DNA from: Roseobacter denitrificans OCh 114
Lineage (GTDB): Bacteria; Pseudomonadota; Alphaproteobacteria; Rhodobacterales; Rhodobacteraceae
NCBI RefSeq assembly: GCF_000014045.1
Contig: NC_008209.1
Span: 2,441,001 to 2,505,000, forward strand
Direction of reading: 5' to 3'
Length of the DNA stretch: 64,000 nucleotides
Positions 42,764-49,597 of this stretch are shown one piece after another; the first letter of the stretch is position 1, and each line of letters begins with the position of its first letter. Below the pieces are notes generated by a model that did no database searches, was not told the DNA's origin, and was given only the letters and a program-made list of their open reading frames with translations. The position numbers were made by a program, and so were the translations under genes.

Positions 42764-43483
42764 ATGCGCGTACTGCTCGTGGAAGATGACCCCACAACGT
42801 CGAAGAGTGTCGAGTTGATGCTGACCCATGCAAATCTGAATGTATATGCAACAGACCTGGGAGAAGAGGGGATCGATCTTGCCAAGTTGTATGACTACGA
42901 CCTGATCCTGCTGGACCTTGATTTGCCCGATATGAATGGTCACGAGGTTCTGCGTCAGTTGCGCCTTGCGCGCATCGAGACCCCGATCCTGATTCTGTCG
43001 GGCGCCGATGATACCGAAAACAAGATCAAGGGTTTCGGGTTCGGCGCGGATGACTACCTCACCAAACCGTTCCACCGCGAGGAACTCGTGGCGCGCATCC
43101 ATGCCATTATTCGCCGCTCGAAAGGGCATTCCCAATCGGTGATCGAGACTGGGCTGATCTCGGTAAACCTGGACGCCAAAACCGTCAGTGTAGACAACAA
43201 GACAGTGCATCTGACCGGCAAGGAATACCAGATGCTGGAGTTGTTGTCGCTGCGCAAAGGTACGACGCTGACCAAGGAAATGTTCCTCAACCACCTTTAT
43301 GGCGGCATGGATGAACCGGAACTCAAGATCATTGATGTTTTCATCTGCAAGCTGCGCAAAAAGCTGAGCAATGCCACAAATGGTGAAAACTACATCGAGA
43401 CTGTCTGGGGGCGCGGTTATGTCCTGCGAGACCCTGAACCCTCGCAGATTGATGACACGCAACGACTGGCTGTAGGGGCCTGA
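42764..43483 (+). CDS. ctrA: Cell-cycle response regulator CtrA
   Basis: 239 aa. OmpR-type regulator of cell-cycle, motility and pilus genes in alphaproteobacteria. Receiver: [10 protein letters not shown], phospho-acceptor Asp51 ([13 protein letters not shown]), Thr/Lys at [12 protein letters not shown]. The C-terminal winged helix has [15 protein letters not shown] and the DNA-contact block [14 protein letters not shown]. In roseobacters CtrA is usually dispensable for viability but needed for flagellar genes and gene-transfer agents. SciP is encoded just before it. A terminator follows. Confidence 0.97.
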
Positions 43484-43586: not shown

Positions 43587-47815
<4,229 letters not shown>

Positions 47816-47832
47816 CACTTTTGCTCCCAAAT

Positions 47833-47847
47833 GTTCTTAAAAAGTTC
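47833..47847 (+). promoter_or_regulatory. Alphaproteobacterial LexA (SOS) box
   Basis: GTTC-TTAAAAA-GTTC is a perfect match to the alphaproteobacterial LexA operator GTTC-N7-GTTC. It lies 58 bases upstream of the 40-aa peptide gene and just after recG ends. A second, degenerate copy GTTG-N7-GTTC is on the minus strand at 47871-47885. So the small gene is a candidate SOS gene. Confidence 0.75.
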
Positions 47848-47905
47848 TTTACAGACCGTAAATAAAATGAGAACAAATAGGCAACATACGAGAGGCGGAG
47901 GCAAG

Positions 47906-48028
47906 ATGTTTACTCAACTGAAAAAAATCGCACTGCAATCACAGGGAACGCTGGTGCAGGACGCGCTCGGCCTCAGCGCCTTGGTTGTGATGCTGATTGT
48001 CGCGCTTCATCTTCCCACGTTTATCTGA
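47906..48028 (+). CDS. 40-aa membrane peptide, candidate SOS-induced gene
   Basis: 40 residues from the ATG at 47906, 5 bases after GGAGG; an open frame upstream to 47831 is not supported since it crosses the promoter. The peptide starts MFTQLKKIALQSQGTLVQD, an amphipathic polar helix, then ALGLSALVVMLIVALHL, one membrane span, ending in FI. Size, topology and the LexA box invite comparison with SidA-type SOS division inhibitors of Caulobacter, but no sequence match was made. It might be co-transcribed from recG as well. Function unknown. Confidence 0.65.
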   Translation: MFTQLKKIALQSQGTLVQDALGLSALVVMLIVALHLPTFI

Positions 48029-48167
48029 TTTCTGCCTGCATTCCCATGTCGTTAAGGCTGTCACACCTCTTCCCCAATCAGGTGTCCTGAGATGACCACT
48101 GCCTGTTTCACATCTCACTAGGTTCGTTTTGGCAGCTGGCCCGATCCCCACATGAGAATGCTTAACT

Positions 48168-48201
48168 ATGCCGCCGCCCGCAGGGTGCGCGGCATTTTTT
48201 T
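48168..48201 (+). terminator. Intrinsic terminator after the 40-aa gene
   Basis: ATGCCGC pairs with GCGGCAT, with an inner CGCCC/GGGTG stem, followed by a T7 run. It lies 140 bases past the stop at 48028, so the transcript has a long 3' part (48029-48167) where no gene is seen. It touches the stop of the convergent chemoreceptor gene. Confidence 0.8.
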
Positions 48202-49597
48202 ATTCGAAACTATAGGCAAGCCTGAGCCCGCCCCAATGACGACCCTGTACAAAAATCGGAGCAGAAAGGTCTTTCATCATTTTGAATGCGCCACCACCCA
48301 TGTCGCGGCGATAAACCTGCAAAAGGAAGGGTTCAGTATTGCGGCCCGCCTTCAGACCTACCCGGTCATCAAAAATGCGACGGTTGCGGCAATTGGCCGT
48401 GTTCCAAACCGGATCATTCGTCTGTGGCTGGGAGAATTTCTTGTTATGTGAGGGCAGATACCCGTTCACGTCGACCGCGGCGCAGAATACGATTTTCGGG
48501 TCAAAGCCCAATGCCGGTTCCTGAATGGCCGGCATGATCTGATCCATAAGCCGCGTCGATTCGGTCATGAACTGCTCGGGATTCGTGTCCGGTATGGGGC
48601 GGTAACTTCGGTCGAACAGGCGGGACATGGAGATCTCACCCCGGCTCAGCGCGGTTTCCATTTGCGAAGCCACTTCGCCGGCCAGTCTGGTGACCTCATG
48701 GATGAAACGGGCATCCGCAGTTTCATTTCCCAGCAAGGCGGTCGACTGTACAATTGTTTCCGATGTGTCAATCAAGTTGAGGATACGGACATGGGTCTCT
48801 TCAACGCCGGAGGTCGTATCCTTCACAGCGCTTTCGATCTCGGCCAGAGCTGGTGTAAACTCCGAAATCGCCCTGTCCACTCGGTGTGCCTGTTCGGAAA
48901 TGCGCTTTGCCTGCGTATCGGCCGCCGAAACCGAGGCTTCGACGCGCCCCAGAGCGGCGTCAGTGTCCCCGGTGGCTTCCAGAACATCGGACGCCTGTTC
49001 GGCGATGCCGTTTGCCTCCTGACCCAATGTGAAAATCCAGTCAGTGAGCGTTTCGACATTCTCCGTGATTTGCACGGCGGCACCGCGCGTCTGGCGTGAC
49101 AACTCGTTGATTGCCTCTGCCACGACCGCGAAACCGCGCCCGGATTCGCCGGCACGCGCCGCTTCGATCTTGGCATTGATGGCAAGCGTATTTACCTGCG
49201 TTGCGATACTGGCGATTTGCTGGTTGTTCCGCTTCACCGCATCCAGGGTATCGGCCACATCTTGTGTTCGGCTTGATACCTGCTGAACCCACCCTGCGAC
49301 CGCACGTGATTTTTCACCGGTCTGGCGTACCATCTCGGCAGAAGCGACCACATCAGTAACGGTCGTTTCAGTCTGTTCGGCCATCGCTTGCACGGCTTCG
49401 CGCACATCTGCGTTGGCCGCCGACATGTCCCGCGCCCGTGCGGTGACGATCTTCAGCCCGCTGGTCTGGGCATGGGCGTGGGCCTCAACCAGATCAAGAA
49501 AACCGGCGATGTCTACGATCTCATATCCGAGAGCGGCGGCGGCGGATGAAAGGCGATTAACATCAGTTTGTGCAGACAAATGTTGGGGGACTTGCAT
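48200..49597 (-). CDS. Soluble methyl-accepting chemotaxis protein with C-terminal sensor
   Basis: 465 aa, without a transmembrane segment, so cytosolic. The N-terminal half is a signalling coiled coil with the hairpin tip [23 protein letters not shown] text (residues about 135-165) that contacts CheA/CheW. The C-terminal third, from about 335, is a sensor domain with conserved [17 protein letters not shown] and [15 protein letters not shown], ending [18 protein letters not shown]. That order, signal domain first and sensor last, is unusual for MCPs. Ligand unknown; the two Cys and the His may bind a metal or haem, but this is a guess. GAGGT stands before the ATG at 49597. Confidence 0.88.

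Follow-up and report, generated by a model that had tools for sequence, protein, structure and literature searches.

The gene directly behind recG in the window (the whole stretch of 64,000 nucleotides of Roseobacter denitrificans OCh 114 DNA analysed here) joins a two-site LexA operator, a coding frame for a 40-aa membrane peptide and a structured RNA behind the stop codon, and all three were found conserved by comparison of genomes. This comparison lends good support to control of the small, conserved membrane peptide by LexA, and DNA damage, judging from the sequence, apparently turns the gene on. By analogy with known inhibitors, the peptide probably acts to restrain cell division, and the 3′ RNA may matter as much as the peptide. 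Our preferred reading is an SOS division checkpoint, in which a LexA-repressed SOS gene would delay division during repair through two products, and we hold this reading with about even confidence. Rhodobacteraceae are a major family of marine bacteria, the locus occurs in most family genomes examined, and it provides a single testable candidate for an SOS division inhibitor of this family. In the portions of the published literature consulted, no named SOS division inhibitor was found for Rhodobacteraceae, and neither the peptide nor the RNA was found described.

An initial annotation of this DNA had proposed a LexA-run SOS division regulator, and the observation behind it is real. The comparison upheld the proposed regulation of this conserved membrane peptide by LexA, while the division role draws on analogy. 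The features it had described were recovered, namely an exact GTTC-TTAAAAA-GTTC box, a 58-base gap from this box to the ATG at 47906, a frame of 40 codons with its stop at 48026-48028, a ribosome site (GGCGGAGG) before the ATG, a single predicted membrane helix (one hydrophobic stretch, best 19-residue mean hydropathy 2.27) and a position behind ligA and recG, as the NCBIfam matches of both genes indicated. The description was nevertheless incomplete, in that the second LexA-like site, the third half-site and the structured 3′ RNA had been overlooked (Table 1).

Table 1. Features of the locus, numbered from the first base of the window.
Feature	Position	Strand	Basis or remark
ligA	43611..45728	+	NCBIfam LigA match
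recG	45725..47815	+	NCBIfam RecG match; constant upstream neighbour of the peptide gene
Third half-site	47823..47826	+	GCTC in the window copy; GTTC in 75/92 loci, N6 from box 1 (10 bp upstream)
LexA box 1, GTTCTTAAAAAGTTC	47833..47847	+	exact in 30/30 loci fetched by peptide
Predicted -35, TTTACA	47848..47853	+	column counts, 83 loci; assignment inferred
Inverted second LexA-like site (box 2), GAACAAATAGGCAAC	47871..47885	+	overlaps the predicted -10 and the presumed transcript start
Predicted -10, GAACAA	47871-47876	+	inside box 2; inferred
Membrane peptide gene, 40 aa	47906..48028	+	conservation, purifying selection
Single-stranded leader, TTTCTGCCT continuing as CTGCCTGC	48029..48037	+	invariant in 18/18 Roseobacter sequences
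Cloverleaf-like RNA	48038..48161	+	covariation, model matches, fold of the window copy
RNA closing stem	48038-48062 with 48131-48161	+	
RNA inner hairpins	48063-48085 and 48086-48122	+	
Intrinsic terminator (stem 48168-48195, T run 48195-48201)	48168..48201	+	fold and sequence

The position of the gene is conserved as well. In 91/91 loci (a few genomes being counted twice) recG was found upstream of the peptide gene, and the distance from the aligned recG end to the peptide start had a median of 109 nt, with 305 nt in L055 and a largest value of 623 nt in L050. A frame at 42764-43483, which we take to resemble the CtrA response regulator, adjoins ligA-recG and the SOS peptide gene.

The significance of the operator lies in its conservation. 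GTTCN7GTTC occurs four times in the 64-kb window against 2.2 expected, and 18/100 shuffles reached four; therefore, box 1 alone is weak evidence and the box by itself was dropped. Absence of the peptide, or of its box, from close relatives had been named as the outcome that would speak against the initial annotation, and the result went in its favour, since the exact GTTCN7GTTC box and an inverted GAAC were present in all 30 loci that had been fetched by peptide, the only ones that give an unbiased operator count. The inverted GAAC followed the box at 38 bp in 29 of these loci and at 37 bp in one. In addition, the strict double-operator pattern was found in 215/295 family genomes, usually once per genome, and the same pattern read backwards in 2/295. 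In the regions scanned, lexA and recA of the genus each had one GAACN7GAAC box (14/14 for both), indicating that GTTCN7GTTC is the SOS regulon motif. The peptide gene thus carries at its promoter, and keeps in relatives, the GTTCN7GTTC operator by which the LexA regulon of Rhodobacteraceae is recognised.

The first half of box 2, GAAC, lay at a spacing of 38 in 83 loci, 39 in five and 37 in four; these 92 loci had been required to have GAAC in that range. The second half of box 2 was CAAC rather than GAAC in 78/92 loci, which might mean that something else, for example the transcript start, holds that base in place. A scoring matrix was built from 28 lexA and recA boxes, that is, from two genes of one genus whose training sites all score at least about 20, and its ranks 1, 3 and 7 for the whole window (both strands) all fell within 47830-47888. 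At 10 bits or more, box 1 was recovered in 82/92 loci and box 2 in 15/92. This poor score of box 2 on the lexA/recA matrix makes its occupancy by LexA less certain. The top matrix score of the whole window belonged to GTAAATAAAATGAGAACAAA at 47858-47877, which overlaps the first half of box 2 and uses another partner half-site.

Across the 83 loci with canonical spacing, the operator consensus reads ATGTTCTyAAAAAGTTCTTTACA, followed by 11-12 variable bases and then aTGAGAACAAAgnGGCAACA; the third base of TTTACA was G in 11% of these loci. If TTTACA serves as the -35, a spacer of 17 would put the -10 on the second site. A consensus scan found no sigma-70 site at the peptide promoter. The seven lexA promoters inspected read TTGACA-N17-TAGAAC, with the -10 within the LexA box and its final T missing. 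According to the excerpts of a published survey, about 97% of Caulobacter SOS promoters carry one box (PMC12700426); measured against that figure, an operator with two sites is uncommon. A Dinoroseobacter LexA paper predicted sites for lexA, recA, dprA and others, and the peptide gene is not among the predicted sites named in the portions of its main text consulted (PMC6473078).

The peptide was found in 32/59 relatives at E up to 1 in a first search, and its profile matched 262/295 family genomes at E up to 0.1. In a wider check across the class, 23/289 genomes matched at E up to 0.1; the good matches came from four genomes of the family itself, and those outside it (E >0.003, mostly within longer frames) were taken as noise. 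Over 58 pairs, pN/pS was 0.24 in frame versus 2.4 and 1.3 in the shifted frames, a clear sequence signature of purifying selection on the reading frame. The peptide consists of a basic N-terminal part followed by the single hydrophobic stretch. Among 26 sequences, D19, G22 and L34 were invariant and L26 and P37 nearly so; clustering of the conserved residues on one helical face was not significant (p 0.085). The profile matches amounted to 700 proteins, and among the 120 of these 700 listed there was no Pfam domain, the named ones being hypothetical or uncharacterized proteins of Roseobacter, Sulfitobacter, Ruegeria and others. The peptide was absent from Pfam, PHROGs and PADLOC, and searches of plasmids and phages found none. 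It also matched the first 40 positions of NCBIfam NF009694 (phosphoglycolate phosphatase) with an E of 0.0012 and 18.2 bits against a cut-off of 415, a match that we suspect reflects mis-started genes in that model.

From the stop codon to the terminator (48029-48201 in the window) the non-coding stretch is conserved. A structure of 41 pairs was drawn by hand on 18 Roseobacter sequences, and 25/41 pairs were changed on both sides among them. The covariation score was 0.326, a value reached by 0/500 shuffled alignments (0.176 ± 0.013); with slid partners it was at most 0.12. The first RNA model built on this structure matched 54/89 sources, which gave 53 distinct rows as the window and L001 are the same place. 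In the alignment of these rows, which was fitted to the structure and so leans towards it, 38/41 pairs changed on both sides, with a score of 0.470 versus 0.169 shuffled and at most 0.095 slid. The third hairpin of the consensus was not predicted in the window copy, and a simple terminator scan did not pick up the terminator listed in Table 1. A second model with stricter filters matched 106/295 family genomes at E up to 0.01. Of these 106 matches, 19 had no peptide position for comparison, and in the comparable genomes the RNA lay directly behind the peptide on the same strand with gaps of 1-69 nt (87/87). Moreover, each of 19 Roseobacter genomes contained one strong match and no strong second copy. 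Rfam 15 gave no match for 47600-48400 up to E 1, so that a structured RNA absent from Rfam would here be tied to the SOS response. UdsC was ruled out as a name for this RNA, the source, as far as its excerpts go, giving UdsC an RpoHII-dependent promoter and a length of 67 nt. A conserved, structured RNA thus occupies the 3′ UTR of an mRNA whose gene carries a LexA operator, an arrangement shared with DinR-type RNAs.

The setting suggests division, and ftsZ was therefore examined as a possible target, with lexA and recA as controls. The RNA element UCUGCCUG complements CAGGCGGA of the ftsZ ribosome sites over 8 bp, one of them G-U. CAGGCGG was present at the ftsZ ribosome site in 14/14 Roseobacter genomes, in 22/22 other genomes, all of which have the RNA, and in 25/28 readable loci of 30 that were taken as best-scoring rather than at random (G333 and G070 being unreadable). 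As G152 and G280 are common to two sets, the total is 59/62 distinct family genomes. In other families CAGGCGG was found in 0/9 genomes, eight of which show GGAG-type sites, and neither CAGGCGG nor its G-U variants occurred near the lexA or recA starts (0/14 each). CAGGCGG is a non-canonical ribosome site. Ribosome sites are conserved anyway, which cautions against over-reading its conservation at ftsZ.

On the side of the RNA, CTGCCTG was found within the first 45 nt in 63/92 loci and anywhere in the 3′ region in 12/22 further loci, 19 of which come from genomes without a model match. The other ten of these 22 loci lack CTGCCTG, yet all ten genomes keep CAGGCGG at ftsZ; conversely, G119 has a different ftsZ site and still retains CTGCCTG. 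As a background, 3/54 window genes showed such an 8-mer under crude start calling. Duplexes with the whole RNA were better for ftsZ than for lexA in 14/14 genomes and than for recA in 13/14. Compared with shuffled RNAs, the ftsZ duplex fell into the lowest 5% in no more than 4/14 genomes, and duplex energies for the three genes did not decide the matter. Taken from these sequence matches, pairing of the RNA with the ftsZ ribosome site is possible and, in our estimate, rather unlikely; if true, it would add a second and independent example of FtsZ being controlled by an RNA after DNA damage. The ftsZ gene of the window organism (L337, near 3215617) appears frameshifted near its start relative to the nearest relative, G012, which would point to a sequencing error or to another start; relatives have intact copies.

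Excerpts of PMC4211646 describe SidA of Caulobacter crescentus as a 29-aa inner-membrane division inhibitor that is under SOS control and acts on FtsW, and those of PMC12700426 likewise describe it as an SOS-controlled membrane division inhibitor. Caulobacter genomes were reached via PopZ and TGTTCN6TGTTC sites were listed in three, in two of which the same 29-aa single-helix peptide was found downstream of a LexA box. Its length and setting fit SidA, and we treat it as a SidA candidate, an identification that is our own and not that of a named record. Homology of the roseobacter peptide to this candidate was rejected, because hhalign gave a probability of 0.14% and the mean alignment score was 17.6 versus 19.1 for shuffled sequences, compared with 65.2 versus 19.5 for a control family member. 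The link to SidA drawn earlier by size, topology and operator thus keeps those shared features and loses any sequence homology, and the peptide can at most work like SidA. Both are very short single-helix peptides behind LexA half-sites (here the helix by hydropathy and LexA by the operator), whereas the candidate has 29 aa, the roseobacter peptide 40 aa, and their sequences are not similar. No recG was found within the 10-kb loci of the candidate in the two Caulobacter genomes. Read by eye, the candidate promoter (L289 and L295) is GAAC-N6-GAAC-N7-GAAC, a triple of half-sites that repeats the N6/N7 spacing of the roseobacter operator and lies on the opposite strand.

Other known systems share single features with the locus, as far as the portions of their sources consulted describe them. 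DidA of Caulobacter crescentus, another small inhibitor of division with one membrane helix, is induced by DNA damage (PMC4211646) and resembles the peptide in this topology; it is SOS-independent and 71 aa long, in contrast to the gene studied here with its conserved LexA operator. YneA and SosA of the Firmicutes are SOS-induced division inhibitors, of which YneA blocks FtsW; they belong to another phylum and are likened to the peptide by description only. DinR of Klebsiella pneumoniae is LexA-controlled, derives from a 3′ UTR and pairs with the ftsZ ribosome site, which it covers (PMC10907235). Like it, the roseobacter RNA stands at the 3′ end of a small-protein mRNA under LexA control, here judged by the operator. 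DinR is Klebsiella-specific and cut from dinI, whereas the present RNA is a family-wide, covarying cloverleaf whose ftsZ pairing is predicted only and is partly contradicted by the 10/22 loci without CTGCCTG. According to these excerpts, SidA and DinR are separate published parallels for the two halves of the gene.

In the preferred reading, LexA would occupy two places, box 1 next to the -35 and box 2 across the -10 and the start, and so keep the gene tightly off; removal of LexA upon DNA damage would turn it on. The 40-aa peptide would enter the inner membrane with its N-terminus in and its tail, HLPxFI, out, and would hold back the late division machinery in the fashion of SidA. The 3′ RNA would control its own mRNA or, less surely, act in trans on ftsZ by covering the unusual ribosome site with UCUGCCUG, comparable to DinR in Klebsiella. 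Together, peptide and RNA would delay division until the DNA is repaired.

TisB of Escherichia coli is an SOS-controlled single-helix membrane peptide with an antisense RNA, and DinQ of the same species is so described in the source excerpts. A peptide of this kind would lower membrane potential and growth instead of acting on the divisome, with the 3′ RNA restraining its synthesis. The likeness consists in a very small single-helix peptide with SOS control, here by the LexA operator only, and the unusually elaborate operator is what would be expected for a harmful product. Furthermore, of 29 mRNAs folded, the majority were predicted to have the peptide ribosome site paired with the reading frame (mean share 0.64). 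However, TisB and DinQ have antisense RNAs where this gene has a structured 3′ RNA on the same strand, and that RNA shows no conserved pairing with the ribosome site (mean share 0.07 over the 29 copies); a fold-back with a share of 0.84 in the window copy was rejected, as it did not exceed 0.33 in the other 28. The conserved D19, G22, L26, L34 and P37 also fit a protein partner better than a pore, and we regard this explanation as unlikely. A protein partner need not belong to the divisome: larger proteins are frequent partners of small single-helix membrane proteins, the sequence itself does not point to division, and the peptide might be an SOS-controlled adaptor of a protease, kinase, transporter or other membrane protein. 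SidA and YneA, the closest parallels by function, both target FtsW according to the excerpts describing them, and a role as an adaptor outside division appears improbable to a similar degree.

For the RNA, an action in cis only, through mRNA stability, 3′-end protection or processing and with no target at all, would be compatible with any reading of the peptide. Its constant place behind the peptide and the lack of a strong second copy in the 19 Roseobacter genomes favour this explanation, as does the finding that no target is statistically firm and that the presence of CTGCCTG does not track the ftsZ site. The leader, in contrast, is more invariant than would be required of a stability hairpin, and it matches the ribosome site found at ftsZ in this family; overall, we give the cis-only role a little less than an even chance. 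The most far-reaching version of the checkpoint would be two-tiered on one SOS transcript, with the peptide stalling the late divisome and the 3′ cloverleaf RNA shutting down ftsZ translation by way of a ribosome site that matches it across the family, Rhodobacteraceae-wide and independent in origin from SidA, SulA and DinR; this version is decidedly doubtful. That a chance box stands before a chance reading frame has a negligible probability. GTTCN7GTTC is indeed common by chance, but operator, frame, RNA and synteny are all conserved, and the cross-genome comparisons have already refuted this explanation.

For the family survey, 295 genomes were taken, about one per genus. The set of 92 loci was drawn from 108: two that lacked recG were left unoriented, 11 repeats were taken out, and L171-L173, without the operator pattern, were excluded. 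Of the 92 loci, 24 had been brought in by the operator pattern and four more had been picked for having it.

Loci at which only one of the two patterns had been found were inspected separately. Twelve loci were positive for the peptide and lacked the strict operator pattern; L166 has no recG and was excluded from reading. Of the 11 read by eye, L171 has the peptide and no recognisable operator, and 10 keep the operator with shifted spacing or mismatches. Five operator-positive genomes with no or a weak peptide match were also fetched (G065, G100, G072, G082 and G098). The stretch fetched from G098 was without recG. In G065 and G100, which gave no peptide match, and in G072 and G082, which matched at E 0.005 and 0.001, a diverged small hydrophobic frame was found in the same place.
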